A stretch of DNA of 64,000 nucleotides from Fragilariopsis cylindrus CCMP1102. Taxonomy: Eukaryota > Bacillariophyta > Bacillariophyceae > Bacillariales > Bacillariaceae. Below are positions 21,560 through 52,404 of the stretch, one piece after another. Under the pieces are notes generated by a model. That model ran no database searches. It was given only the letters and a program-made list of their open reading frames with translations, and was not told where the DNA came from. Both the position numbers and the translations under genes were made by a program. Position 1 is the stretch's first letter; each line of letters opens with the position of its first letter. The DNA lies in contig FMBT01000332.1 in the NCBI GenBank assembly GCA_900095095.1, forward strand, positions 248,001 to 312,000, given 5' to 3'.

Positions 21560-24500
21560 ATGGGTGTGCCAAAATTCTTTCGTTGGCTAAGTGAACGGTA
21601 TCCTAAAATAATTCAACGGTATGGAAGTCTTCCCGATCCTGAAACCGCTGAAAAGCATTTCCCGGAACGTGGTGGATCGCCACCTCCCACAGCGTTTGAA
21701 GAACCCGATCCGATGGCAACGTGTGGATTAGCACCACCCATTGATCGTCTGTATCTCGATATGAATGGGATCATACATGGATGTTCACACAACAACGACG
21801 ACGACGATAGAAATAATAATAATAATGATGATACGGATGCGTCGGTCGAAGGTGGTGGGAGTCGTCGAAAGGGTGTCAGTAGAGAGCAAATCTTTCGAAA
21901 TGTTTGTTATTACCTGGATAGAATCATCGGTGATATGGTCCAACCAGAAAAATTGGTTTATATGGCTATTGATGGAGTAGCCCGAGGGCGAAAATGAATC
22001 AACAACGCAGTCGTCGTTTTAGAACCGGTGGTGATGGAGAGATAGAAACCACCATATACGAGGCCCATATTGCTGCAAATGAAGAAAAAGAACGATTACG
22101 ACGTTTGGAGGAAGACGACGATGATGATAACAACGATGGTGATAGTAATGACAATAATTTTAGGCAGCGGGATGGATCCTATTCGTTCGTATTAGATTTC
22201 GAAGAAGGAAACAAGATACCTTCTTCGAATGGTGACGACAAGGATATAGAAGAAAAAATCAGTGACATGGACAAAATTAATAAAGGAATAAATCCAAACC
22301 AAGAGAAGAACGCAACAAAAATTCGCACTAACAGTGATTTGCAAGAGGTGTCGAACGGTCGATTCAAAGGAAAATTCGAGGCATCTTCATCATCGAATGC
22401 AGCATCGACGGGAAGAAACTCGGATTTCCATTCGAATGTGATCACTCCGGGAACTCCCTTCTTCGCGGAATTTACTAAGTACTTAGAACATTTTGTTAAA
22501 TATAAACTTTCGACGGATCCTAAATGGAAAAATCTAACAATAATCTTCAGCGGTCCAAATGTACCAGGAGAGGGTGAACATAAAATTATGCAATTCCTTC
22601 GTGAGCAACGTGAACGGCCCGACTATGATCCCAATCTGCGTCATTGTATCATGGGACAAGATGGTGATTTGATTATGTTGGGATTACTAACGCATGAACC
22701 AAACATGGTCTTGCTTAGAGAAAAGGTCCTTTTCAATATGACGACCGTTCGATTAGAAAAGGCTAATGCTGCTGAAAAGGCTGCTAAAGAGTCATCATCA
22801 TCACTATCATCGTTGGCATCGACATCATCATCATCACTGGACACGTATATATACAATCCACATTTCGAGTTTTTGCATTTACAAGTCTTACGGGATTATC
22901 TTGCCTACGAATTTGAAACCTCCAACGTGTTAAGTACTTCGTCGTGGGATTTAGAACGACCATTGATGACTTCGTTTTCCTTACGTTTTTGATCGGTAAT
23001 GACTTTTTGCCGCATCTGCCTGCATTGGATATTGCGGATCAGGCATTTGATCTATTATTTCATACGTATAAAAATTGTAGAAAAGAATGGCTGGAGGAAT
23101 ACCATGATGGCGTGGGAGGAAAAGATGGTCCGTATTTGACCCATGCGGGTAATATTTTATCCGGTCGTCGATTGGAAAATTTCTTTGCAGCAGTGGGAAG
23201 TCACGAGGTTGCATATTATGACAAGAAAAAACAGACAGTGGATGCCGAGAATCGGCGTCTTCGAAAGCAATATAAAAGATTACAAATGAAAGATACGCTT
23301 CCCGATGATTCAATCGTTGCGTCTAAGGAAAAATCCGATCGAGCTGCATATCGTGAGATGTTAAAAAGTATGGAAGATTCCGCAATCGTCACCAGTTCTC
23401 TCTCTCCCGAGGATAACATTGATAGTGACAACAATGACGACGACGAGGATATGTTGGATAATAACGATGTAATAGTTTTGTTCCAGTAACAACGAGAAAA
23501 GTTGAATTCCAACCTGTAGAGGAGCAATTGGAGGAAGGATTGATAAGGAGAATGGGCACATTGCTTCAAAACTCGCTAAGTGGTAGCAGCACCAGCAGTA
23601 CGGATAGAGATGAAACGAAGTATCAGCTAGCCGATATTGACGATCAAGACCTTAAGGGTCGTTACTATTACGACAAGTTCGAGTTCACACCTTTCGATGC
23701 AGATAAACACCGTGCTCTTCGCAAGGCATACATGGAAGGCTTGGTGTGGAATCTTAAATATTATTACCAAGGTGTTGTGTCTTGGGACTATTTCTATCCC
23801 TTTCATTACGGTCCAATGCTGAGTGATCTGGTTAATTTAGATGAATTACTGGATGAAATCACCTTTAAAGATAAACTTGGTGCACCATTGGATCCTTTCG
23901 ATCAATTGATGGGTTGTATGCCTCCAAGTCAAGCTCATCATTTACCTGCACCGTACAGAGGGTTGATGACAGATCCTGACTCTCCAATCATCGATTTTTA
24001 TCCACAGTCCTTCGTTGTTGATATGAACGGAAAGCGGTGGCCATGGGAAGCGGTAACATTATTGCCTTTCATAGATTCGCAACGACTAGTCGAGACTACC
24101 TCTAGGATTGACCAAAGTCAGTTGACACAGGAAGAGCTCGAAAGAAACGCTACGGGGACTGCTGTCGTCATAACGCACGATCCTATGCATAGTGAAACTG
24201 TTCCGGGCGTCGGCAAGAGCGAAATATTTCAAGATATTGAATCTTGCACCGCAGTTACAGTCCCCTTCGAGCAGACCGCTTTAAACTACGCGCATGACAT
24301 AACACCAGTTTTTAAGCCAGAAATTAAGACCGGAACCAAATTCCCACAGCCAGGCTTTTCTACTCTGCGAGACGCTCCAGTCGAAACTCTTTTTCGCAGA
24401 AAGCTAGGCATCAATGTACATGGCGGTAAAAGTAGATACAAAACAGCTTGTCTAGAAATTTCTAGTCTTATGCCGCCTTTACCACCAGTTGAGATGTTAG

Positions 24501-25303
24501 CTCCCAAGCTAATCGGAACTAGTGTTTTTGTTAACTATCCCTACTTTGTAGAAGCTCTTGTAACTGCTGTATCAGATGAAAGATTTACTGTTCGGGGTGA
24601 GAACGAACCTAGAAAACGGACTGAATCAGAGACGAATCAATGGAAACTCCAACGAGACGGTATGATTCGACGAGCGGAAGTTGGAGAAGGATATACTGGT
24701 ACAGGTGGATTAATAGTACCCGAAGATCAACCCATTACTTTATCTGTACGGCCATTTCAAGACTTTGTTACAACGAAGAGCGGCCAAGTTGTCAAGTCCT
24801 TTGCATTGTTTGAACTTGAAATCCCGTTGATTTCAACCTTCTGGACTCCTTCACAACCCGACCCGAGACTTAGAGGTATACCTTCCCGGTTGGAAAAGGA
24901 TGCATATGAAATCGCTATGTCGAAAAAGGGAAATGATACTCTATTAAGTAAAAGGTCAAAATCAGGAAAAGGAAGCACCAAGCGGCGTAAACTATTCCCT
25001 GAGAAATCAAAATCTCAAAAAATCTCTTCATTAAATGGGGAAAAACTTGGTATCAATGGGGGGTCGACATTGTCGACAGCCAGCTATTCCAGTCTTCATT
25101 CCGGACCTAGGAAAGGCGAAAAGAATCGAAGGTTCTTCTCAACTATGCCTTCTAGTTTAACTCACCAATTGATGACTGATATTGTTCCAGGTCATGTTTC
25201 GCATTTACTGCCACTGCATTCATCGTTACCGCACGATTGGCTCCTCTTGGGCAATTTAGCCTCTATCGCTCCCTCTTCTAAACGATCCATATCCCCGCTA
25301 CAG
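21560..25303 (+). CDS. XRN1: XRN1-type 5'-3' exoribonuclease (three apparent single-base gaps)
   Basis: A processive exonuclease that degrades decapped mRNA, expected in the cytoplasm. N-terminus MGVPKFFRWLSERYPK; then LYLDMNGIIHGCSH, the KMNQQRSRRFR motif, GPNVPGEGEHKIM, GQDGDLIMLGLLTHEPN, TIDDFVFLTFLIGNDFLPHL, and the XRN1-style linker with WNLKYYYQGVVSWDYFYPFH and DSPIIDFYP. Later D1-type sequence also follows XRN1 rather than XRN2/RAT1. The frame breaks near 21981 (CCC where the conserved GVAPRAKMNQQ needs CCCC), near 22958 and near 23476 (TTTT for TTTTT). Each is explained by one missing base, so I read the host gene as intact with consensus errors. An acidic Asn/Asp insert at about residues 170-270 is lineage-specific. 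There is no stop before the proteasome subunit that follows. Confidence 0.92.
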
Positions 25304-26328
25304 ATGATCGAAAGACCAATGAAAATTGATACGAAGAAGCCAACGTATTCAAGAAGTGCATACTCGAAGCTTTGTCCAAAAAGCATTGGATCTCGAGGGC
25401 GTTTGTTTGCTACAGGCTTAGCCTTGGCTACGTTCTTTTGGAATCCAATCAATGCCGCCCAAGAAGTGAATCCGAAATGTATGCCATTCGTCAGGAATCA
25501 CCGTGTCGCATCTTGTCTCCACAAAGACACAAACTTTCCAGACGACTCAAAACCATGGACTATTCTTCGTGGGGGTGACTATGAAAACACTGCTGATTCT
25601 TTTATGCCATCGCAAAGATCTCCACCGCCGTTGGAGTTTGCTCATGGAACTACCACTCTTTCGTTTGCATTTCAGGGCGGTATTATTGCCGCTGTTGATT
25701 CTCGGGCTAGTTTGGGATCATTTGTCGGGTCCAAGACAACACAAAAAGTCCTACCTGTTAGTTCTCATATTTTAGGTACGATGGCTGGTGGTGCAGCTGA
25801 TTGTCAGCATTGGATTCGTGCACTCAAGAAGAGGCCCTTCTGCACGAATTGACCGAAGATGGACGTAGGATGAGCGTAGCGCGTGCCTCTCGTATACTGG
25901 CTAATCACCTATATGCGCTTCGTGGATACGATCTGTCTGTTGGAACCATGATAATGGGATACGATGACCATGGCATCAACAGTAAAGACGATCACGATAC
26001 CAGATCATCAACGCCATACATATACTATGCTGATAATACAGGATTGCGTATTCAGGGCGACATATTTGCCGTTGGTTCCGGTAGTACCTTTGCTTTGGGG
26101 ATTCTTGATACAGAAGAGAATAGATATAATTTGAGTGTTGACGAAGCCGTTGCCCTCGGTATCAAGGCAATTCGGCATGCTACTTTTCGGGATGCATATT
26201 CGGGGGGTTACATTAATGTCTTTCTAATTACACCCAAGGATGGCTGGAGGAAGGTCTATACTGAAGATATAGCTCGAAATCCAGAGATTTGGAAGGCGCT
26301 GCAAACAGAAATAAACGAAAATTCCTAA
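25304..26328 (+). CDS. PSMB5: 20S proteasome subunit beta type-5 (chymotrypsin-like), in frame with XRN1
   Basis: Catalytic beta5 subunit. The mature chain starts at Thr1 (codon at 25649) after Gly: HG then TTTLSFAFQGG. Asp17 in AVDSRAS and Lys33 in KTTQKVLPV follow, then LGTMAGGAADCQ, VGTMIMGYD, FAVGSGSTFALG and RDAYSGGYINVF. One missing base near 25826 (AAGAAG for AAGGAAG) splits the frame inside the conserved RALKEEALLHEL stretch. The propeptide start is unclear: the ATG at 25481 would give a 56-residue propeptide, the normal size, while the ATG at 25304 is the first after recognisable XRN1 sequence. No stop separates it from XRN1, so either the two are fused or a stop is hidden by another missing base. 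The coordinates given are a compromise. Confidence 0.88.
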
Positions 26329-29849: not shown

Positions 29850-29910
29850 GAATGGCTGACCAAGGACAGACCATACGAGTATATATAGCCAATCATAGAG
29901 AGCAATTAAT

Positions 29911-30179
29911 CTCACACTTATAATAACACACTATTTACATACGTTAATAATAGCATTTAAGTCTTCAGTCTAGTGAACTTAGGTAGCTAGATAGATTTAC
30001 AGCGCACACTTTTTAATAAACACTATTTACATATGTTAATAGCGTATAAGTCTTCAGTCTAGTGAACTTAGGTAGCTAGACATATTTACAGCTCACACTT
30101 CTAATACACACTATTTACATACATTAACAGGATAGAAGTCTTCAGTCTAGTGAACTTAGGTAGCTAGACACATCTACAG
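29911..30179 (+). repeat. Three tandem ~90-bp monomers in the LINE 5' region
   Basis: Units at about 29911-30002, 30003-30091 and 30092-30179. Each contains ACTATTTACATA, GTCTTCAGTCTAGTGAACTT and AGGTAGCTAGA and ends in (T/C)ACAG. A single unit recurs at 48911-48998. Tandem 5' monomers carry the promoter in several LINE families, so a promoter role is likely but inferred. Confidence 0.85.
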
Positions 30180-30360
30180 ATGACACTGAAAATCTATACT
30201 TCATTCCAATTGGTAATGAATCACAATTAATATCACAATTCCAGCTGGAATTAATTGAAAACGCGCACCTCAAGTTATATCACTTAAATACCTCAGTACT
30301 GAAACTACGTAGAATCCTACGTGAATCTCTGAACCAACCCTCTAAAAGAGACTGTTGACG

Positions 30361-30862
30361 ATGATAACAAAGCCAGTATTAATTCATCATGGATGGAGCC
30401 ACACCAATGGAGAAGACATGTATGACAACATATCAATAGGGTCCACCAAGGAAGCACGAAGCGGGGACAAATTGGACCAAAAATCGTTGAAATTGAAGGA
30501 AAACAGTGAAAATGGAATTATAGGCATTAGCGACAATAACAAAGTGGCTGACACCGACGATGAACAAGGATGGACTACAATAGAGGCCAATGGAAGACGC
30601 AAACCCAAAACAACAACCATGGAAATGCCAATTATCGACTCGATCATAACAACCATAAATGTGGAAACAACAACAGTACATGGAGCAATGGAAGTACGAA
30701 TTGAATCACCGGTACGAAGAAACAGATGTATCATACCAGATAAAACAGAAAGCGACGACGACGACAAATCAGCAGTTGATATTGTAACCAAACAACTAAT
30801 GAATCAAATACCAACAACAGAAGAAGAAGAAGAAGATGAAGATGAAGATGAAGATGAAGACA

Positions 30863-30893
<31 letters not shown>

Positions 30894-33323
30894 AGTGAAG
30901 AAAATCGAACCACCAACACGAACAACCAGAGGCATGATCACTGATGGAATTGATTTTGAACCTATCAGTAGAAATCAAAATGAACAACGGCTAACATCAC
31001 CGCGAATTGAAGATAAAGAAGAGGAGAAGAAGCAAGAAGAAGACAAAGAAGATAAAGAAGAAGATAAAGAGGAGAGATATACGAAAGAAAAACATAATAA
31101 TAAAACGAATAAAAATATTCCAAACAAGTCAACAAGTGAAGAAAAAGAACTAGGAAAAGAAAGAATAACAATGGCAAATGAACAAGCAGGAGATACAGAA
31201 AACAGAAGATTAGCAACGGAACGTGCGACAGATGATCAAATGCAGGAAGATGGAAATGATACAGAAAATACCGGAAGCGAAAGAAATAATGGAAATAATC
31301 CAAGTGAAAATAGTGGAAATAATGGAAACAACGACAATAGCAGCAACAACGGAGACAACAGCAATAATAATAACAACAACAACAGAAAGAGAGGAGGACG
31401 ACCAAAAGTATCCATAGTAGAACCAACAGACATGGCAACATATACTTTTACAATTGCATGGAGACCAGAAAACAAAGCAGGTAAAGATGGAAAAATTATT
31501 ATAAAGAATGTAATGAGAGAAATGCAGCACAGAGAACCAACAATTATATTCCACCCAACAAATTCAGCTACATCACCAGTACCAAGAGACATCCGCAACA
31601 TAAACAATGATTTTCCCAAAACACCAGCAACATTTGATGATTTCTTTGATCAAAATAGAAACAGAGACAATACAAATCAACAAACATTCATGAAGGTATC
31701 AATGCCACTCAATGAAAAAGAGCTACAAAACAAAATTCATAACTATTTATACCATAATCAACTGTACATGAACAGTCCGTTCATTAATGATAACACACTG
31801 GAACATGTTGGATTTGTTGAAAAAGGACATAGCAGATTAGTATTCAGACCAGCAATGGAAAAGAAAATACAAAATGGAATTAAAGACATTATGAATGGAG
31901 ATCAACTTACACCTCAACAAATAGCACAAATAAAGAACCTGTCAAGTGATGTTAGAGTGGAATGCCACCGAGGAACAGTAAGAGGAGGAGCATATACCAA
32001 CCAATCTGTATGTGAAGGAATAGTACTAAAGACGACAAAATCACAAGCAAAACTGGTGATGGAACTACTGGCAATGCTACCGGATAACCTCCTTGGAGAG
32101 CACTATAGAATCTGCCCCAAAAGTGTAAATCAACACCTTGGATTCGAATTATATGGACAAATAGTAGCTGATACAGCCAACTTCCAACACAAACTCCAAC
32201 CGATCACCATACTAAACTGCCACCCCAGTGTCTTCGACGATATGTATGGCAATGTAAAGGTAGTGAATTCCACACAGGTGAAAGTAAAACAATTTATACT
32301 AGGAAACTGTGGAGCTATATCAATTGAAGAGACAAATGAAACTGCAACAAAAGGGAAATATATAGTAATAGTACCAGCAAATAAAGTAGATTCAGCAAGA
32401 AAAGCAATTGGGAAAATGTTTCAAGAGTTCCAAGAAAGTAGTGACAGACCAGCAGCATTGGAATGCATCAAAGCATATGAAAATTATCCATTAGTGAATG
32501 ACACAGTAACAATCAGCGGACATGCAGAAAACCTAGCCCAAAAGATCAGAGAAAGATACAAAAATAAACCCAAAACACCAATTCGAACTATGCAAAGCTC
32601 ACAGTACTCGTACCATGGAAGCGTCTCAATGGAAGAACAAAATGCATTGCAAGCAGCAGCAGCAGTACCTAGGAGTATCATTAAGAAAGGAAGGCATAAC
32701 ATCAATCTAGCACTACCATTACAACAATGGGCTTCTCCACCAGCAGTACAACAAGCAGCAACAACAACAACAAATCAAGCAGAAATAGGAACAGTTATGT
32801 CAAATCTTTCACCGGATGATTCGGCAAAAACAATGATGACAAATGTATCAAAGATGGTAGAATCATTAGGAACTGTAGTAACTACAATGGCAAAAGAAAC
32901 AGCAAACACAAATGAAACGATGAAACAAATGATGATACAACAAGCAACAACAATGAACAACCTTATGATGATAATGACAAGGAATGAAGACAGAAGACAG
33001 GGAACACCAATAAGTATAAGTGAAATACAACCAGTAATAGATTTACAACAAGGATCTACTCCAGCGAGCACATTAACAAACAGCCAATACAGTCTATCAC
33101 AAGAACAATCACCAAGCTCCAACAAACGACCAAAACATGGACTAGACGATGACGAAACAACAGCATTATCAACAATAGAAAATGGTACAACAGAAGACAT
33201 GATAGAAGAACAAATGGAAGCGACTACAAATGAACAACCAAATGATGTAACAATGGAAGATAAAGAACAAACAACAGTTGAAACAACAAACACAGCAAAC
33301 GTCCCAGGAGATTTTAGCCAATT

Positions 33324-33354
<31 letters not shown>

Positions 33355-33408
33355 CAAGCAACAACAAATACATCTACAAAGACAGGTTTAAATCCATTAA
33401 ATGAATAG
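30361..33408 (+). CDS. LINE ORF1 protein (1015 aa), no known domain
   Basis: First protein of the retrotransposon, expected to bind element RNA. Start taken at the ATG at 30361. The first 380 residues are very acidic and Asn-rich (long Glu/Asp/Lys and Asn runs). The ordered core at about 385-740 (MATYTFTIAWRPENKAG to ARKAIGKMFQEFQE) alternates strands and helices and matches no family I know. The tail has a heptad-like Met/Thr helix and a Gln/Thr/Asn-rich end. I see no CCHC knuckle and no RRM motif, the usual RNA-binding modules of LINE ORF1 proteins. The stop overlaps the ORF2 start by 8 nt (ATGAATAG). Confidence 0.8.
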
Positions 33409-34179
33409 AGGCAACGATGATGATGATACCAATGAGGAGAACAAAATATTAGCATCAAGAAAACAATTTAAAGAACACAATAATAATGAATCAAATATAC
33501 CAGAGTTAATTAGTAGATATGGTGCTGTTGAATCATCGGATGATGATAGCAGTGAAGAAGACACCCCACGACGACGACCACCGATTGAAAAGAGACTGGA
33601 ACAATTGAAAGAGGCGATGGAAAGAATAAGTAGTGCAAAGAGTAGAAATAGAAGGCCAGGACTGCAGAGGAGAAATAGTGAAGATAGTGATAGTGAGAGT
33701 GATAATGAGGAAGAAGATGATAACAATACAATGCCAGGATTACAGGAAAGAGACAGAGAGGACAGTGATAGTGAGGATGACGAGGAAATAAGGACTAAAG
33801 TATCGCGAAAGGAACGAAATAGTGAAGAAAAAACTAAGTCAGTACGAAATAGTGAACAATTAAGGACTAAATTATCGCGAAAGGAACGAAATAGTGAAGA
33901 AAACACTAAATCAGTACGAAATAATGAACCATTCAGGACTAAATTATCACGAATTGCAACCACTAGGACCACAACCAACACTAGAACCACAACCAACGAT
34001 GATGTTGCAACTACTGTATCAATGGAAACAACAACAACAAGAGCTATAGGAGAAAACAGTGACTACGGAAGTGGAATCAACAGTGAAGAAGATTTATTCT
34101 TTGAGCCAAGCGACGACGAAGGTGAAGAAGGAGATAGTGTGCAGAATAATAATAATTATACAAATGGAAATGAAGAAGC

Positions 34180-34211
<32 letters not shown>

Positions 34212-37200
34212 CCACAACAACACCAACATCAACACCACCGAAGACAATGACGATAACACAAGAAAACCTACCTTTTGGGCATATTTGTGATGATATAGCA
34301 ATAGGAAATGATACACCATACGTTAGAGTATACTGCCAAAATGTATGTGGAATATACGATAAAGACGGTATAGGACTAGACTCAGCATTCAATGAAATGA
34401 AACAGGCAGGAGCTGATATATTTACATTCAATGAGACTCATGGTGATGAATCAAATGCACTGGCGCGACGAGCTACAAAAATGTCAAAACAAAGAATGTG
34501 GAGAGATAACAATGAAGATTGCAAAATATTACATTCATCATCAACAGCACCTGTTCTAAGCTTTACAAAACCTGGAGGAAATATGGTCGGAATAACTGGA
34601 TCACTAGTAGGCAGAATAAGAGAAACAATAACAGATCCGTACGGAAGATGGTGTGGCTACACACTTATAGGAAAAGATAACAAAGAAATAATAATATTAA
34701 CAGCTTACAATGTATCACAACATAAAAATGCAAAAGTAGGAGATGATACACTGTACAACCAACAAACAGCATTATATAAATTAAAAGATATTAGAGATCC
34801 GGATCCAAAGAAATTATTTATAGAAGACTTAACAGCACTAGTAAAGAAGGCAAGGATGGAAGACAAAGATATCATATTAACAGGCGACTTCAATGAATTA
34901 GTAGGAGACGATCCAAACGGTATGGTGAAAGTTATATCTGCAGGAGGACTTACAGATGCCCACAGTCATCAACATGGTATAGTAGACATAACAACGTATA
35001 CAAGAGGAGTCAAAAGATTAGATTATGTATTTGTAACGCCAAGACTAGTAGACCACATACTTCGAAGTGGATACGAACCTTTCCATGCAAGAATAGCATC
35101 AGATCACAGAGGCTATTTTGTGGACTTTGCACTAGCTGGATTCCTAGACAGACAGTTACCATCGATATTCTCAGCATCATCAAGAGCAATCAGAGGAACC
35201 CATCCGAAGAACATCACAAAATATGTGGAACACCTCCATAAAGTTTTCAAGATGAGAGATATCTACAGGAGAGTAAAATTACAAAAGAACTGGTATGAAA
35301 AGAAGAAATTGGAGGCACTTGACAGAGAAATAACAGCAGTGATGCTAGAAGCAGAAGAACAGTGCAGAATACATCATAGAGAACCATGGTCAGAGGAAGT
35401 GAATGAAGTAATGACAACAGCGAACATACTGCGAATCCACTTGTCAAGCCTGAAAAACAATATCGATTGCAGCAACCAAATACAACAAAAGCAGCTCTTG
35501 TTGAAGAACCAAATACAACTCCCAGAAGACATTGCAGAGGCCTCCAAAGCGCTGAGTTTAGCGCAGAAGAAAAGAAGAAAATTAATAAGAGATAACAGAA
35601 CAAAGACGACTAGCATAGGAGAGGAACAAGAAGCAGCATATGTAGCAATGAACCCAGAAATGGATGCAAAGAGGGCAGCGCAGATCTTCCAGAGAGCAAG
35701 AGATACAAAACAGATGATGTCGGAGCTACCATCAAAAATGAACTGTCCAGGGGGCCTATCAGCCGTACTAGTTCCACTACCAAAAGAAGGAATTGAACTT
35801 GAGTATTTGGCAATAACAGATGGACCAACATTAGAAAGAATAATACTGGAGAAGAATATTAGACACTTCAGGCAAGCAGAATCCACTCCATTAGCATCAC
35901 CAGAAGTAATACGCAAGATAGGTTTTGGTGCAGATACGGAAACAGCGGAACATCTGCTTGATGGAACTGGCGATCCAACTGATATAACGGATGATGAATG
36001 GGCAAGATTCCTACTAACATCAATGAAAAGAAACTCAGAAGAACTAAAAATAGAGATAACAGCAGAGAAAATGATGGAGAAGTATACGAGGTGGAACGAA
36101 CGGACAAGTACATCACCATCAGGCAGGCACTTGGGACATTTTCATGCATTATTTAGACCACTAAAGGCAAAGAACAAGAAACACCGTGAACAACTGGATG
36201 ATATCAGAGATGATATAATTGATTTACATGCAACAATGCTGCAGACAGCGTATGACAATGAGCATGTCTACAAACGATGGGAGTACATCCTCACCTGTAT
36301 GCTGGCTAAGGAAACTGGAATACCAAGAATACACAGACTACGAGTGATACACCTATACGAATGTGACCTGAATCTACTATTTTCATTAGTCTTCAGAGAA
36401 CTGGACCAACACTGTGAAGATAACTTCCTACTCAACAAGGGAGTGTATGGATGTCGACCGAATAGACGAGCAATGGATCCAGTCTTTGTAGATGTAACCC
36501 AAAATGAAATGGCAATGGTAACACGAAAGGCTCTAGTGAAATTCAACAACGATGCAACAGCCTGCTTTGACAGAATATTAGTACACTTACTCAGTCTGTG
36601 CTTACAATCTTTTGGATGTCCCAAGAAACTAACAAAAATATTAGGAGAACTGCTAAGAGTAGCAAAATATGCAATAAAAACCGGAATAGGAATATCAAAA
36701 GAAACCTACCAACACTCAGATGAATCACCTGCATTTGGATCTGGACAAGGTAGTGCTGCATCAGCACAAGGATGGACAAAATTAGTATCAATGCTGTTTG
36801 ATATTCATGACAAGTATGGACACGGATGTAAATATGAAGACCCATGGAGACTATATAGTGAAATCATTGGCATGCTAGGATTTGTGGATGATAATAATAT
36901 TACAAACAATGGTGAAGACTGGGAAACAGTAAATGATATCATTATTAGAACACAACATGATGCACAACTATGGAATGATTTATTGAGAGCAACGGGAGGA
37001 GCTCTAAACCTTGACAAGTGCTTTGCACAAGTACTAGCTTTTCAATTTGGGCTGAATGGTGCACCAGTTATTGCACCAGCAGATCCAACCAACATAATAA
37101 TAATAAAAGATAGACAAAACAACAAAGACGTAATAATCAAACCAATATCACCATATACAACATACCGGTTCCTAGGTACGGAACAAGGAACAAGCAAGAA

Positions 37201-38647
37201 TCAAAAGTCACAACAAGGAAAATTAGTGAAAACATCATCAACACACAACAGAAAGCTAGCTTGCTCAGCAATGTCACCAAGATGCGCTTGGGTCCATTAT
37301 ACGGCAGTATTTCTCAGCAGTGTGGGCTACCCACTCAGCATGTGTCATCTCAGCCAACATCAATTGCATGATCTACAGAAGAAATATATACCAACACTTC
37401 TGAATAAAATCGGTATAGCCAGAACACATGCTCATGCATTAGTATTTGGACCAAGAGCGTATGGAGGAGTAGGTTGTAATGACCTAAGAATAGAACAAGG
37501 ATTAGATGCAGTACAAAACCTAATCAGGCAATTACGAACTCCAGGCTATGGCAAGCAACTAGCCACGATCTTCCTACGGACTTTTCAACATGCATCAGGA
37601 CTATCAAAACCACTACTCCAGTATCCCAGAATCAGAGCGCCCCATCTTGAAGGCCACTATTATGTACATATACGACTATTCCTCGCAAAGCACGGAGCCA
37701 GTCTTGAAATCGAATGCATACCACAATCAATCGATGAACGAATGGGTGATACGTACATCATGGATGTAGTATGTGTACCATCAGCAGCACTGACATTGGA
37801 TAGAACAAAATTGAAACACTACACAAATGCAGAAATTAACCAAATTCACTACTGTAAGAGCTATCTACAAGTAAAACGAATTTCTGACTTATGCACTGCT
37901 GATGGAGCATTCATACTACCATCCATAGCAAAAGGTGAAAGAAGCACAAGACAATGTACGTCCAAGCTGAATGAAATAACACAAGAAAAACCTGGTGATC
38001 AATCATGGACAGTGTGGAGAAAATTCCTGAAGACAATATGCAAACCTAGTTCGAACCAAGAACCACGATTTGAACCAAGAATTGATCCTATCACCGAACC
38101 AAGTACCAATCAACGAACCAACGAACCAAGTCTTGATCCGAGAACCAACGAACCAAGTCTAGATCCGAGAACTAAGCCAAGTACCTACTCAAGACTAAAC
38201 CTATTCACCGAACCAAGAACTGAACCAACAACGGAAATTAGTGATACCCTCACCAACCATGAGGGTCTACAGCAACGAAAAGAAGAAATGAATAAAGTTA
38301 GTACTGGAACGTTCATACTCAAATACTGGGTTGGTGTACCGTTCAGAGGTATAGTAATGAACAATACAGGCAAATACTACCAAATACTGTACGAAGATGG
38401 TGATGAAGAGGAACTTAATCATACAGAAGTAGTAAAATATGAGAAAAAGTATAGAGAAGAGGGAAGAATGACAGGTGAGATAGGACAACGGATGAGACTG
38501 ACGAAGCCACTAGGTGACTGGCTAGTACAAGCAATGATTCAGAACGGCTGTGGCCATTCTATTATTCAGAAGAAACCGACACTCTCTACAGGAGCTTTAG
38601 AAAGGAATGGCACACCAATGGAGAATACTACTATGACTGCCACATGA
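33401..38647 (+). CDS. LINE ORF2: APE endonuclease and reverse transcriptase
   Basis: 1748 residues in this frame. A charged N-terminal arm includes a 24-residue repeat (RTKLSRKERNSEE) at about 33789-33950. The endonuclease spans about residues 305-575 with YCQNVCG, FNETHGDE, LTGDFNELVGD, RLDYVF and ASDHRGYF, covering the Asn, Glu, Asp/Asn and Asp-His catalytic positions. The reverse transcriptase has motif A KFNNDATACFDRI (about 1047), motif B GSGQGSAASAQGW (about 1114) and motif C GFVDDNN (about 1160). The FVDD box differs from the common YADD. A 27-bp coding repeat (NEPSLDPRT) sits near 38111-38175. In the last ~40 codons of this frame, protein-like sequence continues in the next frame (FYYSEETDTLYRSFRKEW), pointing to one missing base near 38.53 kb. 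ORF2 and the RNase H part were therefore probably one protein of about 2460 residues. Confidence 0.88.
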
Positions 38648-40793
38648 TAGCAGACAATGATACATACAACTATGTACCAGAAGGCAATGTGGAAAGACTA
38701 CCGAATGATGCATCACCAACAGATGTAATGGACACTGAAGATGGATGGAGAATATCAAAACACCACTCATTACGACAACAAAAGGAAGAACACGAGGAGA
38801 GCAAAACAATAATGCAATATCTACAATCACAAGAAGAACATGTATCACAGTACTATGCAGAAATAAATTTCTTCACCACACCGTATGAAGTTTATGAACT
38901 AATAAAATCACCAAGGAAATACAACATAGCGACCGATGGGGGGCAATACCACTCAAAGGATCCTTAGGATTTGTTGTGGCAGATGAAGATGGAACCATAC
39001 TATTATCTTGCTATGGACAACCATCAGGAAATGATCCACTTTCATTCCGATCAGAAATATGTGCGTTACTAGCAGCAGCAAAGCTATTACAACTAATAAC
39101 AGAATACTATGATAATCAAATACAATGTGAAGAACCAGCAAGAGGTAAAGTACAGGTGTACACTGACAGTCTAAGTATGATAAAGAAATTAGAAGCATAT
39201 GATGAATATCCAACAGCGCATCTGAAGACAGTACTACATTCAGAGTGGGACGTACTTTCAGCACTGAGTAGGACCTTGAAGAAATTCAGAACATATCCAA
39301 AACTAAGCTGGGTAAAGAGTCACCAAGATGATTTGGTTTTTGATGAGAAAGCAATGCCACTGGAGGCTTATCTGAACTCAGAAGCAGATGAATTGGCAAC
39401 GATAGGCCTGAAGAGACTACAAGAAAAACCTACTGTACCAATGGATCCAAACACATGCATACAGTTCCACATCGAAGGAAGAACAATAACAAGAAACTTC
39501 AAAAACACAGTAAGAGGAATAATACTACTAAAACCACTACGAAAATTCTACTGTGAAAGATTCAAGTGGAGTGACAATATTTTTGACTTGATCGATTGGG
39601 ACGTATTTCGACCAGTCTACAAGAAACGCCTATCAACAAAAGGAATAGCATGGATGCATAAATTTTGCATAAAGAAACTTCCAACAGGAGAAAGAGTACA
39701 CAAAAGAGACCACTTCCATGACAAGAGATGCGCATCATGTTTGGATGATGAAGATGATGACCACATCCTCCAGTGTGATCACAGAAGAAGCGTAAGAAAG
39801 AAGGTTGTCAATCAAATAAATGTACTGCGCAAAACAGTGGACAAGAACTTGTGTGACATACTACAGGAAGGTTTAATGGCTTACTTCAAAGGGGACTGCA
39901 TGTCCAACACCATGTTCAGAATAAGAGGGGGGAAAGGCATGGAAAGGTACAGAAACTTAATAGATGAACAAACAGTAATAGGATGGGACAATCTGTTAAG
40001 AGGAAAATTTTCAAAGGAGTGGAGAATACAACAGAAAGCATATAAGACAAGACTACGCCTAGTAGATCCAATTGAGTATGATAGGATGAAAAGACAGAAG
40101 AAAAGACAACAAGAGCAACACAATGATGCAAACAACAACAACAAAACAACCAAAAGCAAAAATAAAACAGAAGAATTTCATGGTTTCTTTCAGTCAATAG
40201 TACCAATAATATTAGAAATGTGGACAGATAGGTGCATTGACAGAAATACACCAGTATTAGGGGGCAGAATAGTAGCAGAATATGAATCTCTATGCAAGAG
40301 AATAACTCATCTGTATACATTAAGAGAAATGGTATTGCCAGAAGATGAAATTAAAATATATGATGAAACACTACTATCAAAACTTGCAGACACAAACCAA
40401 CAATTGAAAAAGTGGATCAACAGATGGAGACCAGTAATAGATCATAGCATGAAAAGAGTGAAAGAACTAGCACAAGACAACAGTATACCGATATGGCAAC
40501 ACTTCACTGCAAACAAACCAACAAAGACCAAGGTATCAAGGAAAACAACAAAGCAATCGAAACCAAAGAAATATTCCAATAATCCATTGACAAATGTGTA
40601 CACCAGATTAAAGAAGAAGCGATCATCAAGTAGAGTACTTCCAGTAATAAAGGAAATCAAACATAAGGTTAATCATTTGATATCAACATTGTACAACAAA
40701 TTGGGAAAGAAGAGATCAACTAGCAGAGAGCAAACAGCATTGGAGGTGGGGAAGCAGATGATTGATGACAGATTTGGAGACGAACCTAAGTAA
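38644..40793 (+). CDS. LINE ORF2 continuation: RNase H and C-terminal zinc finger
   Basis: The frame from 38644 to 38967 and that from about 38946 to 40793 belong together. A G6 run at 38938-38943 lacks one G, after which IATDGG is followed by IPLKGSLGFVVADEDGT. RNase H catalytic positions are visible: Asp in IATDGG, Glu in FRSEICALLAA, Asp in VYTDSLSM and Asp in NSEADELA, with SHQDD just before. Further on, a Cys/His cluster (KRCASCLDDEDDDHILQCDH) matches the zinc finger that follows RNase H in many LINE proteins. A basic tail with RSSS and RSTS patches ends the protein. The ATGA overlap at 38644 probably arises from the frame break and is not a true start. Confidence 0.82.
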
Positions 40794-40892
40794 TAAATAA
40801 ATGTAGAATAAGTTTGGCGGGTAGATTGTTGACTTTCTGTCTTTCTAAGACCTTAAGGAGCAAAGCTGCAGCTATTAAATAATAAGTTATAT

Positions 40893-41539
40893 ACACAATT
40901 AATATCACTGATTCCATTATATCAGCCCGTCAAGGAACAACAATTGGATTTCTCATCTCCTAGAATTTGGGCTTTCATCTCAAGTTTGGCCTCTCATCAA
41001 ATCACATACTATTACACTCCTCCTGCAAAGGAAGCTTATGTTGTTGATGTGGAACATATGGCCAAAATCATTATCTGAATATACCTAGCTATACCAATGC
41101 AGTGACAACCACAAAAAAATGAATATAGTGAATTTCCTAATGCCCGCCCTAATAGCTGCTTGAGTAGGATGCGGCATAACCTAACATTGAAATTAGGCCC
41201 TACAGTAGTACTTGGTCATTGCTGTGTTGGCTTACGTTTCGAATTTTACATGCGCGGTGTTACAGGTAACAAGCAACAGGTTATGAATTTGTGAATCAAT
41301 CGAATCAACAAAAAGCATCAACCACACGATGTGCATGCATTTTTTATCTCTCTATCTTTTATTGTGTGGATGCAAGGAAAAATTCCACTCATTCTTTTTA
41401 CTTACTACTAGTACAGCGTACTGTCCGTACAGTATTAAATATTAAATAGCATCTTCCTCTTCCTCATTACATACTAGTACATAACATCAGCACGGTAGCA
41501 AGGTAAGCAGCAATAGCAGCAACCAATAAAACCAAGATT
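40893..41539. other. Spacer between LINE and eIF3c
   Basis: Promoter side of eIF3c, with pyrimidine-rich stretches near 41340-41400 and 41448-41465. No gene seen. Confidence 0.5.
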
Positions 41540-44500
41540 ATGAGTCGATTCTGGGCAGGAGATTCTTCGTCCGACGATGACGAGTCTGACGATTCCTCAT
41601 TTTACTCGTCCGACGACGACGATAACCGTGCCGGAGCCGGTGCTGGGAACAAATGGGTAGACTTTTCCGACAGTGATTCTGATGACGATGAAGCTAGGGT
41701 TGTTAAGTCTGGCAAGGACCGTGCACTTGAAACCTTCCAAAAACAGATCGTTGCAATCCGAAGTGCAATGAGAAAACGTGATTATTATATCATCCAAACC
41801 GAGTTCGATGAGCTCGCAAAAGCTATGGTGAAAAATAAGAAGGTTTTACAGGCTGGTGTGCCTCGTCCCTTAGTCAAAATCCTCGTGGATTTGGAAGATA
41901 CATACATCCCAGAACGTTTAACCGACAAGGCAGCCTTTAAAAAGCTGTCGGCCCGTCAGGGTAGATCCTTGAATCGGATGAAACTCACGTTGAAAAAACA
42001 CAACAAAGCCTACGCGGTTGTGATGGATCATTACCGTAAAAACCCTGACGACGACAACGATGATGATGATGATGTGGATTTAGCCGGTGACGGAGGCGGC
42101 AATGACTCGGATAGCAGCAGCGGAAGTTCGAGCTCAAGTAGTAGTTCCAGCTCCTCTTCGAGTTCTTCCGACGATGATAAGGTAAGACAATTCAAAGACA
42201 AGTGGGACATTTTCGATTGAGTTGAGTTGCGTGTGTTTTTCTTCTTTCTTCAAGGTTTTGTGTGACTTTGCTTGGTCAAGTTATTCATTTATTCATATTT
42301 AATAAATGTATAAAGATTGATTGTAAAAGTTAACGCAAAACGTATTATCATAATGATCGCCCTTTCAACCCAGTTACATTTTGTACGCTGGGTTCGAATT
42401 CCTCGTTTCCGATGTCTTCGCTCGGGTTCTATGCTCCACTGTATTGTCGCTGTCAAAGCGGCAAGGAGACGAGCTTGTTGCGATGGATGAGACTAACTTA
42501 TACCAAATTTTTGAGTGACGATACGATTAGAAAAAAATACCATGTGGTATGGCTTCTATTCATTCATAAATCAATCTTATTAACTAACCCACTTTTTCTA
42601 TAATTTTCTTTCTAATTACCTCTGTGTTTTTTCTCATACGACGTATAGAACTCGGATAGCGATTCCGACAATGATTCTGGCGGTTCGGATAGCGACGTCA
42701 ACTGGGACGTTGAGGATGCTGACTCGGATTCTTCCGACGATGAAGGTGATGGTTTGGGTGAACTTAAGGGTAGAGCAAAATGGCTCAAGAAGGCAGTTGT
42801 TATCAAGAAAAAGAAGAAAAAGGATATTACCGAAGACGAGGAGGGTGCCGCTGAAAGCAAAAAGAAAGAGATTAGCAGCAAGAAGGAGTCAATGGTTTCT
42901 TCCAAAGATCACGAGGCAATCCGTGCTCCGAAATCGGTGATACCGGTAGAAGGTTTAACGGCAGCTTTGTTAAACAGGAAGGTTCAGGAGATTGCATCTT
43001 CACGTGGACGTCGCGGAACCGATGCTCGACAACTTCTTCGTCAATTTGAGGGATTATCCCGCCTATCGATGCGATTCGGTCCCCGTGTGGAAGTTCCTAT
43101 TTTGATGTATGTTATTAGTGCTCAATTTTCTTTGCAACGAACGATGGATGATTACATGGATACCGCCACGTGGAGATCATGCTCGACGTACCTAGAACGT
43201 ATCTCTAACGTCATTGTCGATGGTGGGTTCAAGTTGGGTGTAGAAACCATTGATGAGGCTGATATGATCTTGGGTGCAGGAGGTGGCAACGCCAAACGTA
43301 TGAAAGGTATGAAAGCAGCGGCTATGGGCGTCGGTGGAGCCATGGCGGCAGTCGCAGCCGACGAAAAATTCATCAATCCACACACTAGTGAGGCAGAAAC
43401 CGAAGATGAACGAGACGAACGGTTGCGTGTTGAAAAGGAAGATGCGATGACCGACGATGAGAAAAGACTATCCCCGTAGTTGGATCTCTATCCATGCATA
43501 TGTCGCGCTCGAAGAGGAGTACACCAAGAGTCTACAAAAAATTTCGCACCACACGCAAGAGTATGTAACGCGACTACGGGATGAATCAAAACTAGTATCT
43601 CTTCTTGGCAAGACCCAATCTTACTTTGAACGCGAAGGTATGATCAATGAAGCCGCCCAAATGGCACAACTTCACATCGAGCACATCTATTATCGTCATG
43701 ATTCAATTGGACGACAGGTGGACAAAGCTGCTGAGTTTTATGATAAGTTCGGCGAGGTGGCTATTCTCCATCCTGTTTGTGTTACTAAGCATGCTGCGAC
43801 TGGTACTGCTATCGACACTGCCACAACGCATCCAGCTGCTAGCTTGGGCAAACCTGTCTTGGATGATGCAGCCTCGGTTGCTGAGAATACGGATTACAGT
43901 GCACTGGTGGGAAGACTGTGCACTTACATATACAAACACGGAACCGACGTAGCCAAAAAACGGTCCACTATTTGCCATGTTTATCACCATGCTCTTCATG
44001 ATCGATTCATCGAAGGACGTGACTTGTTGCTTATGTCCCACATTCAGGAAGTTATCTACGATGTGGAAGATATCACAACTATGATCATGTTTAATAGAAT
44101 GATGGTCCAATTGGGTATGTGCGCATTCCGTGAGGGTCGTATTTGGGAGGCCCATCAGTGTCTGACTGAAATCTGCAGCAGTAGAGTTCGTGAATTGTTG
44201 GCACAAGGAATGAGTATGGGTCGTTACAGCGACAAGACACCTGAACAAGAAAAGGCCGAAAAGCGTCGCCAGGTACCGTATTATCAGCATATCAATTTGG
44301 ATCTGCTAGAAGGTTGTCATTTGATCAGTGCTATGTTATTGGAAATTCCCAACATCGCTGCAGCGTCGGTGAGCGGTGGTGTTGATTCCCGTCGACTTCG
44401 TCCCATTTCTCGTTCGTTCCGCAAGTACCAAGACATTTACAGCCATCAAGTGTTTACAGGCCCGCCTGAACAGACTCGTGATCATGTAATGCGTGCTTCC

Positions 44501-45187
44501 ACTGCTCTATCGAAGGGTGACTGGAAGACATGTGTCGATTTGTGTACTTGTTTGGAAGTTTGGGACCTAGTTCCCGGAGAGGGATCAGCCGAAGGTATCA
44601 AAACCATGCTTGCATCGAAAATCAAATTGGAGGGACTACGTACCTACCTGTTTGCCTTTTCACCTCAATACGAATCACTCTCTCTAAGTCAGCTTTGTGC
44701 GATGTTTGAGATGAGCAAGAACGAAGTTCATAGCGTCGTTTCCAAGATGATCATTAACAGAGAATTGTTAGCGTCTTGGGACCAACCGACTGAAACCATT
44801 GTCTTGCGCAAAGCGGATCCTAGTCCAGTCCAATTGATGGCACTTCAATATTCCGAAAAGGCTGTTCATTTGGTAGAAGCCAACGAACGGTTGTTGGATG
44901 CCTTTACCGGTCGTAGAGACGAATGGAGAGGCGGACGAGGAGGCGGCCGTGGTGGTCGCGGTGATGGTGGTGGAGGCCGTGGTCGAGGCCGTGGTGGAGG
45001 ACGAGGCAGTTATAACAATCAAGGTGGATACAATAACAATAATGGTCGTGGTGGAGGTGGCGGTCGCGGAGGAAGAGGTGGACGTGGTCGAGGTGGTGGA
45101 CGCGGCGGTCGTGGAGGAAGAGGTCGGGGTGATTACAATAACCGATCCAATAACCAAGGGTATGGACAGCAGAGATACAGTAATTAG
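41540..45187 (+). CDS. EIF3C: Translation initiation factor 3 subunit C
   Basis: Core eIF3 subunit that joins the 40S ribosome to eIF1, eIF2 and eIF5 during initiation. Exon 1 (41540-42181) opens with MSRFWAGDSSSDDDE, the conserved acidic eIF3c start. A 467-nt intron (GTAAGA...ACGTATAG) falls in the Asp/Ser run, and exon 2 starts at 42649 (NSDSDSDND). Recognisable segments include FDELAKAMVKNKK, RGRRGTDARQLLRQFEGL, EEEYTKSLQKI and the PCI domain with SLSQLCAMFEMSKNEVHSVV. The C-terminus is an RGG-rich tail. Two one-base gaps, near 43463 (AAAA for AAAAA) and 43507 (CGCTC for CGCCTC), split the frame around KTIPVVGSLSMHMSRLEEEY. With them the protein is about 1060 residues. Read as an intact host gene with consensus errors. 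Confidence 0.94.
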
Positions 45188-45650
45188 TAGAATGAAGAGA
45201 AATGGATGACCTTTCACCCTATAGTAAACTAAGAGCAATAACAAAGATTTAGCAGTGAATATTAATGACCTAAGTATTTTTTTTCTATAGACGAGTCGAG
45301 TAGCATAGTGCTAGTATATATTATATTGTCTGAGTGTGTGTGGACCATAATATGTACTTTTTATTAAAGTATCATCATTCATGAACTTCAACAGTATACT
45401 AGCTAGCTATAGTAGAAGTTGAGACTATTTAAAAAAAAGACAAAGTTGATCGTAAAACTACTCAAGCGATGCCTCTAATAAGAAAGAAGTGGAACGATAA
45501 TATTGTATATCGGATAATTTATTTGTAATCGCTATCTCATCTCTAACATTATTATACTATAGGTATACTCTATATTGAATCATACGAAGAAAATTTATAA
45601 AATCACTGTCTAGAAAAGTGTAGGTATTCATAATATATGTTATATCCTTT
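45188..45650. other. Convergent spacer
   Basis: 3' flanks of eIF3c and the cyclophilin-like gene; AT-rich, nothing recognised. Confidence 0.5.
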
Positions 45651-47704
45651 CTATAAAATAACGGCACGTTTTAATCCGATCCGTTTTCGATACCAGATAC
45701 CATTCCTAGTCGGAGCTGCCTTCAATCGTTCGACCGTTTCAAATCCGGAGATAATCTTTGCAAAACAAGGTTCACCAATATGTTGTTCGGTATTGTCCTT
45801 TGTATTAATGTAAAAGGAGGGGCTACCATCAGCAGCGAATCCGACCGTATATTGTTTGTGTGGATATTCTGATGAATATTCCCGAAATGAAACAGTATCT
45901 AACCCTAATTTAGTGAATGCCTTCACCTTTTGTGATGCCGAACTACCATCGTACGGTAACGGTGCCGCCTTAATAACATGCATTGCATTCAGTATAAATG
46001 AACATCCATCAAATAAGTTCGAATTGATCATCTCTAAGAACGTAAACACAGAATGGGGCATCAATTCAAGGGATGCCATTTCTAATATCAAAATATTATT
46101 GTTGTTGTTGTTGTTACTTTTTGCTGATACTTCAGATTGTTCCCCTCCTCCAACTAGTGTCGTCTCATCCCCTGACGATGACGTGGTCGTTGTTGTACCC
46201 TTATTACTTTTATTTCGATTCTCCCGATCTTCGGGGAAATCGAGCTCTAACTGGACACGGATAACTCCCGTACCGTATTTCCTTGTAGCGTCTCGTAAAC
46301 TCGTCATCTGTACGTACTTTTGTAATGAACTCATTTCAGAGTTTGATACTCTTAATTTTTCTTGCATTGCCACCATTTCATTGAACATACCACTTTCATC
46401 GTCTTCGTCGTCAAAAGACGATGACGGCACTTTGTCATCTATATTTGTCTTGGTAAAAGTAGAACTAGCACCACTGTCAGTGTTACTGTTACTGTCACTG
46501 TTACTGATGAATACTGCTCCCGGATCGATTTCTAACAATTGCCCTTGTAGTATATGTATATCTCTTTCGATTGAATCGAAATGGACTGAAACTTTTTTAT
46601 TTCTTGCTTCTGTAATGACCGTTACTTGATCTATGGCAATAGATAACGTTGCGTATGATTGTGTGTATAGACCGACCCCTAATAATGACACACCTGTAAC
46701 GAGTAAAAGAAATAACGGATTCTTTACTTTTAAAAGCGATCGCCACAACAATTGTTGTTGCTGTGGCGTTGTTGTCTTGTCTGTAATAGTACACGTACTA
46801 CTACTTATCTCGTTGCTATTGCTATTGCCATTGCTTCTTTTATCATCGTAACTGTCATCATTTTCGAGATCAAAAAAAAGTGTACTACTACTTATATCGT
46901 TGCTATTGCTATTGCCATAGCTTCTTTTATCATCGTAATGTCATCATTTTCGATCTCGTAATGAGAGGGTAAGGAAGTTGTAGACGGAGTAGGGGGGAGG
47001 ACCGAAATAAAGTCACCCGATTGGCTCCGTCGATGACCTTCTCGTATTATTTGTATGTTGTTGTGTTGCTGTTGCTGTCGATGCTGCTGCTGATATTCAA
47101 TGTCACTTTTAAGTATTCCTGATATTGATTCCGATGATTCTGATTCGTGTAAAGCTTTTCTATGAATATTAGGAGAATATAAATATGTATCGCTGTTACT
47201 TCTTCCATTGCCTATTATTTTCGATTCTGGGATTGTTGGAGGAGGAGGAGGAGGAGGGGGTGGAAGAGGAAGAAAAGAGTCATTTTCGTCTATGGATTGA
47301 GAGGAAGAGGAATATGAATTTATTTCTTCAATGTCGTTATCGTTGTCGTTGTTGCATTCAGCAAAACTGCTCTGACTACTCTCATCTTCCCCATCGTCCG
47401 TTGATCGAAAATGGACTTTCAATGATTGGTAGTGCGTATCATTATGTCGTCTTATTCTTGAGTTGTAATTCGTGTGGTAATTATTGTTATTATTACTGCT
47501 GCCGTTGTTATTGTTATTGTTATTGATGTTGTTGATATTAGTATCGGTATCGGTATTGGTATTGGTATTCGTATTTGAAATCGCATCACTATTATTATTA
47601 TTATTATTATTATTATTGATCATACCACCATCCTTATCGACAGAACTACATCTTCTTCTTGACATTCTTGTAGTTGTTGCTCCCATAATTGTTGTCGATA
47701 CCAT
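45651..47704 (-). CDS. Membrane-anchored cyclophilin-like protein (one apparent base gap)
   Basis: About 684 residues if one missing base near 46950 is allowed; the gap is visible by comparing two tandem coding copies there (ACATTACG against ACAGTTACG). The N-terminal ~310 residues are disordered (Asn, Gln, Ser and Pro runs). One hydrophobic span follows (NPLFLLLVTGVSLLGVGLY), so the protein is likely a type II membrane protein. A helical stalk and then a cyclophilin-type fold come after it: GVIRVQLELDFPE, EMASLELMPHSVFTFLEMI, FDGCSFILNAMHVIKAAP, YTVGFAADGSPSFYIN and FAKIISGFETVERL. The usual active-site FHRVIPGFMIQ stretch is replaced by FDGCSFILNAMHV and lacks the catalytic Arg, so isomerase activity is doubtful. 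Probably acts in the secretory lumen. Confidence 0.75.
46787..46957. repeat. ~85-bp tandem duplication inside the cyclophilin-like gene
   Basis: Copies at about 46787-46871 and 46872-46957 share TTGCTATTGCTATTGCCAT, GCTTCTTTTATCATCGTAA and TCATCATTTTCGA. They encode repeated ENDD-YDDKRS-GNSNSN just ahead of the membrane span. One copy lacks a single base relative to the other. Confidence 0.85.
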
Positions 47705-48138
47705 ATGGACACGACGATAGTGTAGGGAAATAAATTGATAGATGTGATACCTTTTGTTAAGTTAGTCTAATGATTTACAATCCAATTTCATTGTCATAGG
47801 TTACCACTACATGTACTGGGAAACAAATAAGACAAACGACCAAAGCAGTATTGATTATATATACTGTATATTGATGTGCTATTATTAATTGAAGCGAACG
47901 ATGGTTCCTATTTGTTTCTTTTTTCGCCGCGTTGGTGACCGCTTTTGATTTATTTATGCTTTTTGTCTAACAAGCAAAAGTTACAATCATTGATCGTGAA
48001 AATTAAAAGTTTTTAGTCATTTAGAGACGGCGCCAGTCAAAATCTGTCCGCCCCACCCACCTGCGAACCGTTGAGTTTTTTAGGCGCGCGCAAAACACAA
48101 TTGCGAAGGTAATCGCGACTCAAGGTCTTCAACGTAAC
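47705..48138. other. Spacer before the truncated LINE copy
   Basis: 5' flank of the cyclophilin-like gene. No gene seen. Confidence 0.45.
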
Positions 48139-48886: not shown

Positions 48887-48998
48887 TCATAGAGAGCAAC
48901 TAGGCTCACACTTCTAATGAACACTATTTATATACGTTAATAGCATAGAAGTCTTCAGTCTAGCGAACTTAGGTAGCTGGAAACATTTACAGGTTATG
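48840..48998 (+). mobile_element. Lone LINE 5' segment with one monomer
   Basis: Matches the 5' region of the large LINE from about 29855: GACTGACCAAGGACAGACCAT, AGCCAATCATAGAGAGCAA, then a single monomer with GTCTTCAGTCTAG. After the monomer the similarity stops, with no ORF1. It lies just downstream of the truncated 3' copy in the same orientation. Confidence 0.8.
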
Positions 48999-49414
48999 AG
49001 AACATATATCTTTTATCACTGTTAAAAGATGATAATATAATAAAGTTTAAACAGGGTTGTGTTATGATCGTTAGAACACTAAAGTTGACTCTCAGTCCCG
49101 AATCCTCAGTCCCGATTCTATAACGCGCTCGCCGTTCCGCCTTTTGAGCCGACGCAAAATCGAATTCACTTCAATTTTACTTATATTCAACATTGAACAT
49201 TGCTTCACATGACATTCAACACGTGCTATCTAAAGTTACAGTACACCAATAGCAATATAGCAACTACGAGGATTTTTATTGTAGACATGAACTTGGACAC
49301 AGTTGTGAATCCGAACGAAGAAGAATTTGGTCGCTAGCTACATGAGGGGAGAATTGTTTATAAGGAGTCGGGAAAGAATCAAATCCGAGCACTGAATGCT
49401 GATATAAATTGCCG
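48999..49414. other. Spacer
   Basis: Promoter side of the PH-like gene. No gene seen. Confidence 0.45.
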
Positions 49415-50560: not shown

Positions 50561-51190
50561 AACAAAGGTTAGAAAGTCGCGATTTAACAGGTTTGGCTCA
50601 ACAGCAAGTAATCTTTTGTTGAAGTATAGGGGACTACTACTATCGAAGTTTGAATCAAAGTTCAGATTGTTCGGGGATACATGCAGGATTTTTCACGCAT
50701 AATATTTGTAATAATAACTTCATTAAACTCAAATGTTTTACATTTGATAAATGCCCAGATGCATTACACTGTAGCGCGTTGTTCTTTTCGGCTATGTTAT
50801 GTTATACTGTACCTTTAATATTCAACATGGACTGTATCATCAAAAATAAATTACTGAAGAGTTATTATTTTTTCATTATAATTTTTTGTTGTTCTAAAAT
50901 GAGTGGGTGCTACGATTTTCTAGCAAATTTTTCTTTTTTAAGATTTCCGAAAGCGCGCAAAATCTGCGTACTTACGTTGACAAAATCGCATCATCAGCTC
51001 TGACGATATCTTGTGAATAATAATATCCATTACGGTATTCTGTTTGTTGCATGTGTATAATTTATTTGTTGTCGCTACTCGGCAAGACCCATTGCCATAT
51101 ACCGAATCAGACCACTTCTTATCTTTTTTTACTGAGGACTATTTAATTGGATAATATTCTTAGACCTTCAAAGCATCACCAAGCATTACC
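50561..51190. other. Spacer
   Basis: No supportable gene. A plus frame at 50650-51003 is rich in Phe, Cys and Tyr from AT-rich DNA and lacks gene-like features. Confidence 0.45.
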
Positions 51191-52404
51191 ATGGTCAATT
51201 ATAAATACCGAATACGAAGTTTAATATGTTTTCTACTTCCGTTGTCTCTCATTCTGTTGTACTATAACCAGTACTATTGCGAGGCATCTACTACTACAGC
51301 CACTGTTCATCCTGGATGGAACAAGCAAAGACAAGAATTTCAGCGAAAGTTGAAATCGATCACACATAATAAACGTAGTGGTAGAATGAATAAGGAAAGT
51401 AAGAACATTTTTGATGATGAAGTCACTGAAGATAAAATTGGTTTAGCCGGATATAGAAGCGAGTACGCTGATCACGACGGCGCACAACAAGAACAGATAA
51501 AAAAAGGCTATGGTCAAAGTTTTTCTTTTCTGAGATTTCAATCCCCCGTAGCCATCTGCAAAGCTTTCGATTCTGTTCGGTCGTCTTCGTCTTTTAAATG
51601 GTTCGAAGGGGTTGATCGAAAGGGGTACTTCTCAAGCACCAAGTTAGGCGGTGATTGGGTGATTGCTGAAAGCAAACAGGTCGCTGTGGACTGCACAACA
51701 GAAGAAGTTCTGCGTGTCTATCTTTCTGGGGAGTTGCAGGCGAAGTGGAATGAAAAGAATATACTGGAGTGTTGTTTCACTAAATTGCAGAAGAATAACA
51801 ACGACGGAAGCGGTAACAGTACACAGAATGTTAATAATAATAATAATAATAATAGTAATAATAATGGTCTATCACATAAGGCCAATTTTTGGACGAGATC
51901 GAAAGGGAATAGCTACAACAGTATAAGCCAATCACAGGATCGACTCGATTGCGCCGAAGCTATCGGAGACAGTTACTTTTACCGGCAAGATCTACTTCTA
52001 AAATCGCAACGGGTTATTCGTAGCCACACTGGGATTATGAAGTATCAACAAATCATTGAAATTGACAAAGTGGGACGTAACAATTATTCTATATTGGTTC
52101 GTCTCTTAAAAAATAAGAATGAGAATAATCGAAAAAATAATCAAGTGGAAGGAACGAACAGTAGTGCCATCACAACGACAGCCAAAAAACCATTTGAATC
52201 ATTACAGGTTATGTTAATCTTGAACAAGATGGAAAAGACGTTAACATTTATGCAGCTGGTGTGTTTGAAGTTGATAGACAGGTGGTTCCAAATTTGATAG
52301 TATTTGATACGAGTGGAATCGCTGGATCAATTGCTGGTAAAGGTACACTGTGGTTGGCTGCTTATTTCGAAAATGGAGAGAAAAATCAAGGAATGAATAA
52401 ATAA
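51191..52404 (+). CDS. START/polyketide-cyclase-like lipid-binding protein, secretory (one apparent base gap)
   Basis: An N-terminal signal or anchor (SLICFLLPLSLILLYYNQYY) is followed by a charged linker. A helix-grip-type domain runs from about residue 145 to the end: GGDWVIAESKQVAVDCTTEE, VLRVYLSGELQAKWNEKNIL, FYRQDLLLKSQRVI, then VFEVDRQVVPNLIVFDT. An Asn run sits in a loop. The frame given by the ATG ends at 52297, but from about 52205 the next frame reads YVNLEQDGKDVNIYAAG and continues to a TAA at 52402-52404. One missing base near 52205 explains this, and the protein would be about 404 residues. START-like domains carry lipids; the ligand is unknown. Confidence 0.72.

Follow-up and report, generated by a model that had tools for sequence, protein, structure and literature searches.

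Frame breaks in conserved genes of a Fragilariopsis cylindrus contig are best explained by deletion-biased consensus error in the draft assembly

Ten reading-frame breaks in a contig of the diatom Fragilariopsis cylindrus CCMP1102 are best explained by deletion-biased consensus error of the draft assembly, a reading to which, on comparisons of assembled sequence, we give a probability of about 0.93. The window analysed is a stretch of 64,000 nucleotides (bases 248001-312000 of contig C439) in a draft of 67.9 Mb and 818 contigs, and the positions given below are those of the window. Four observations support this reading: the breaks are biased in sign; at several conserved positions they measure exactly one base; other contigs and genes show the pattern too; and paired contigs contain open and broken versions of the same genes. 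The first-pass annotation had described the breaks as an assembly-error signature, and it was most likely right on this main point; they are most likely an ordinary artefact of a known kind and not biology. The features concerned are as follows.

21560..23489, plus strand: first part of an XRN1-type 5'-3' exonuclease gene, with breaks near 21981, 22958 and 23476
23465..26328, plus strand: remainder of XRN1, continuous in frame with proteasome beta5, and a break near 25826
30346..40793, plus strand: LINE-type element, with breaks near 38530 and 38940
41507..45187, plus strand: eIF3c gene, with breaks near 43463 and 43507
45651..47761, minus strand: cyclophilin-like gene with a Pfam Pro_isomerase match in its 3' part and a break near 46950
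51164..52404, plus strand: gene called START-like in the first-pass annotation, with a break near 52205
57931..59292, plus strand: gene that is open in the window and broken in a second contig, C772, by two one-base losses private to C772, at 58395 and 58446

The ten breaks were checked by frame translation, Pfam, alignments to solved homologues and a codon-usage frame model, and also by comparison with sequence elsewhere in the assembly. The sites were withheld from the frame model, whose training set was 18 hand-picked stretches of the window, the affected genes included; an order-4 Markov frame model had missed known genes and reported zero shifts, and the codon-level model was used instead. 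All ten breaks are present in the sequence and all are recovered by the model, with missing-base steps at 21987, 22964, 23469, 25801, 38533, 38913, 46900 (on the minus strand) and 52203, and a single two-base step at 43460 that merges the breaks at 43463 and 43507. Under a stricter penalty seven of the missing-base steps are kept together with 43460 and a step at 33404, and 52203 is lost, such that the break at 52205 is recovered only at the laxer setting. The sign at each of the ten is that of one missing base, as had been claimed, and the loss of a single base is supported at eight of them; the other two (23476 and 52205) could instead be introns of length 3n+2. The remaining model steps in the window are a pair at 12984/12998, one at 30355 in repeat-rich DNA before the LINE ORF1, and the one at 33404, where ORF2 starts in overlap with ORF1. 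The pair has a net shift of zero and lies around an in-frame TAG (12995-12997), which sits in an otherwise unbroken coding frame. No coding insertion was read among the model steps in the window, and the claim that none of the breaks is an insertion holds within it; it does not strictly hold elsewhere in the assembly, where steps of the other sign, which may each be two losses, occur in C59 and, once more, near the end of C451.

In the XRN1/beta5 locus the first segment has XRN_N and XRN_M pieces in successive frames, and the second has XRN_M, XRN1_D1 and Proteasome matches (Pfam). At 21981 the XRN_N profile passes into the following frame, offset by -1, and the PRAKMNQQRSRRFR motif, a weak match on its own, stands directly after the break. 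At both 22958 and 25826 the alignment to a solved homologue runs ungapped through the break once a single placeholder residue is supplied. The break at 23476 is within an unconserved acidic linker, where no conserved residue was shown to span it. The three XRN1 sites (21981, 22958 and 23476) are outside the coverage of C772, and the break at 25826 is common to C439 and C772. The assembly has additional loci of the proteasome and XRN families, which may include spare copies of beta5 and XRN1. We note that XRN1 and beta5 share one open frame at 23465-25852, in which no stop separates the two and the codon signal shows no clear drop from one to the other, and that C772 is also open across the junction. 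This may be a true fusion, from which beta5 would release itself by cleaving at the HGTTTL site; a literature search for an XRN1-beta5 fusion found nothing.

The eIF3c gene has eIF-3c_N pieces in separate frames (Pfam). At 43507 the alignment to a solved homologue is again ungapped through the break with one placeholder residue. It starts just 3' of the 43463 break and does not cross it, and the loss of a single base at 43463 is supported because C772 carries one base more than the window there. The break at 43507 is present in both C439 and C772, and no eIF-3c_N locus other than these two was found in the assembly. eIF3c is essential in eukaryotes, so that having both of the loci found broken at 43507 would hardly be bearable for a living cell. 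In the cyclophilin-like gene, a second tandem unit of the same gene has one base more at the 46950 break; C772 shares this break and lacks a further base at 46950/46951. The first-pass annotation had placed several losses in short homopolymers, and these are fewer than claimed: the extra C772 base at 43463 does not lengthen the A run, and the loss at 46950 is not within a homopolymer. The region 51164-52294 gave no Pfam match at 0.001, and the break at 52205 is common to C439 and C772 with no conserved residue shown to span it. At 52373 C772 has one base more, which alters the final residues encoded by 51164-52404.

The LINE-type element adjoins an 88-base tandem repeat at 29913-30179, and C772 is without it (30243-40896), such that the insertion seemingly lies on only one of two copies. 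Nineteen relatives were aligned, out of 48 matches listed (the window itself included). At 38530 eighteen of the nineteen have one base more, the exception being L025. At 38940 there is a net gain in seventeen (one base in sixteen, four bases in L029) and none in L024, which is the second-closest relative of the window by score, or in L025. Because these two lack a net gain, it is possible, as far as the aligned copies tell, that the 38940 break is true decay of the LINE. Three copies are themselves rich in one-base losses relative to the window, with losses to gains of 19:1 in L025, 15:6 in L028 and 20:2 in L040; they are on contigs C458, C585 and C54, which are perhaps of poor quality, and C54 also has myosin frame breaks.

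Paired contigs give what appears to be the strongest evidence that the losses are in the consensus and not in the organism's genes. C772 (29,088 bases) repeats the window from 23902 to 63411, with the LINE missing, in three long blocks of 99.3 to 99.8% identity, and a second pair, C262 and C679, of 20 kb each, shows similar behaviour. The contigs were compared with stricter gap costs, after an earlier run with loose ones, and each one-base difference in the two pairs was scored from the longest open frame found in the 400 bases to either side. Of these differences, seventeen fall within open frames. In 12 it is the copy without the base that is broken, in one it is the copy with the base, and four are unclear, which gives 12 of 13 decidable differences. 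The reverse case, at 45227, is beyond the eIF3c stop, and it is still counted against the loss reading. The base is missing from C439 in one of the 12, from C772 in two, from C262 in two and from C679 in seven, and each of the four contigs is thus the broken copy somewhere. By sequence context, five of these losses fall in runs of at least three, three in runs of two, and four outside any run. Among the five sites of the first-pass annotation that are testable in C772, only 43463 is mended there, and 25826, 43507, 46950 and 52205 are shared. The frame model reports 8 missing-base steps in C262, 8 in C679 and 3 in C772, against 0, 3 and 2 steps, respectively, of the other class; in our reading those five each coincide with two nearby losses, and closely spaced steps (59949/60088, 69276/69388 and their partners) may be introns. 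One locus pair, L003/L004, has no difference over 3681 bases, and the other locus pairs compared yielded no reported site.

The bias towards missing bases is seen again in other contigs and genes, which supports the assembly-error signature proposed at the outset. Profile matches were examined for the kinesin, CCT chaperonin, HSP70, AMP-binding, myosin, eIF3c, proteasome and XRN families, and 68 neighbouring piece pairs were taken, at least two rows being left out (C384:392406-392585 and C70:210781-211077). Fourteen pairs have an offset of six bases or fewer, 11 with the missing-base sign and three with the other; without C439 and C772 the numbers are eight and three (n = 11). Each of the three other-sign offsets may be one gain or two losses. 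Offsets of 7-39 could reflect an insertion loop or an intron, and pairs of that kind, which include the myosin loop region, were left uncounted. A further 49 pairs have gaps of 40-700 bases, the length modulo 3 being 0 in 20, 1 in 10 and 2 in 19, a split to which we attach no weight. Five of the small-offset places were translated, and at these the protein continues in another frame, as judged by eye.

Other explanations differ in where they could apply. Some of the breaks might be short introns of length 3n+2 with no base lost, which we consider unlikely, though possible at 23476 and 52205, where no conserved residue crosses the break and where there are 24 and 16 GT..AG candidates, respectively, of 40-150 bases and fitting length. 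An intron could also account for the 52205 break being in C772. However, none of the candidates listed for these two sites starts with GTAAG, the donor of two likely introns in the window (near 9500 and 42182), and at 22958, 25826 and 43507 an intron is ruled out by continuous protein alignment. True gene decay, in which the deletions are real mutations and some are heterozygous, would fit paired contigs that differ as alleles might, and LINE copies do decay; two relatives, too, show no net gain at 38940. As a general account it is very improbable, since the changes are losses only, over conserved genes with an unbroken residual codon signal, and in-frame stops and gains would be expected too; nor does decay sit well with both eIF3c copies being broken at 43507 with no other locus found.

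Programmed -1 frameshifting or insertional RNA editing could in principle put the genes back in frame, at any rate where both contigs carry the break; in its favour are the four breaks common to C439 and C772 and the conserved coding that resumes exactly one base out of register at 25826 and 43507. We consider it extremely improbable. An in-frame slippery heptamer (X_XXY_YYZ) is found at none of the eight sites scanned (43507 and 38940 being left out), which, in agreement with the first-pass annotation, speaks against programmed frameshifting; similar breaks are private to one contig while the partner is open; the genes hit are unrelated; and a literature search on programmed ribosomal frameshifting in diatoms gave no title on diatom nuclear genes among the matches listed. 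It is barely credible that the genomic DNA itself carries the shared breaks in beta5 (25826) and eIF3c (43507) and that an undescribed step restores the frame or inserts a base during expression.

Under consensus error, the draft would have lost single bases at scattered positions, and each base lost from coding sequence would shift the frame, such that intact housekeeping genes appear broken. The probable cause is noisy long reads without full polishing, and breaks common to near-identical contigs could come from systematic miscalls or from a consensus called from pooled reads. Several observations count against consensus error. Four of the five testable breaks are shared by C439 and C772, which is unexpected under independent random errors, and seven of the 12 paired-contig losses are outside runs of three or more, whereas published deletions are mostly homopolymeric. 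The other-sign offsets, the identical L003 and L004, and the LINE relatives L024 and L025 at 38940 are also counted against it. If deletion-biased consensus error is the correct reading, gene models, pseudogene counts and recoding claims drawn from the assembly would be wrong at many genes. Paired contigs offer an internal, read-free check on which copy of a gene is sound, although errors common to both copies escape it.

Indel errors that break reading frames are well documented for long-read drafts, and two reports are close to the present case. The Kastor paper (PMC12007338), which cites Watson and Warr 2019, describes, in its account of a test assembly, false deletions as predominant among the indel errors and mostly linked to homopolymers. 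The likeness is in the short indels, mainly false deletions, that break reading frames. The differences are that the Kastor deletions, as that account presents them, are strongly tied to homopolymers whereas only five of 12 losses here are in runs of at least three, and that its case is bacterial and was corrected with references and reads, whereas ours is a eukaryote compared through contig sequences alone. In the Trypanosoma brucei assembly (PMC8445201), long-read indels and collapsed alleles are described as giving falsely truncated genes. The resemblance here is that of a diploid eukaryote with apparent frameshifts from long reads, which in our case are presumed. There the reads were used to correct and phase the sequence, whereas we compared contigs alone, and its account of the false truncations stresses no single error direction, in contrast to the one-sided losses seen here. 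Set beside what these two sources describe, the F. cylindrus breaks are most likely the same kind of artefact.
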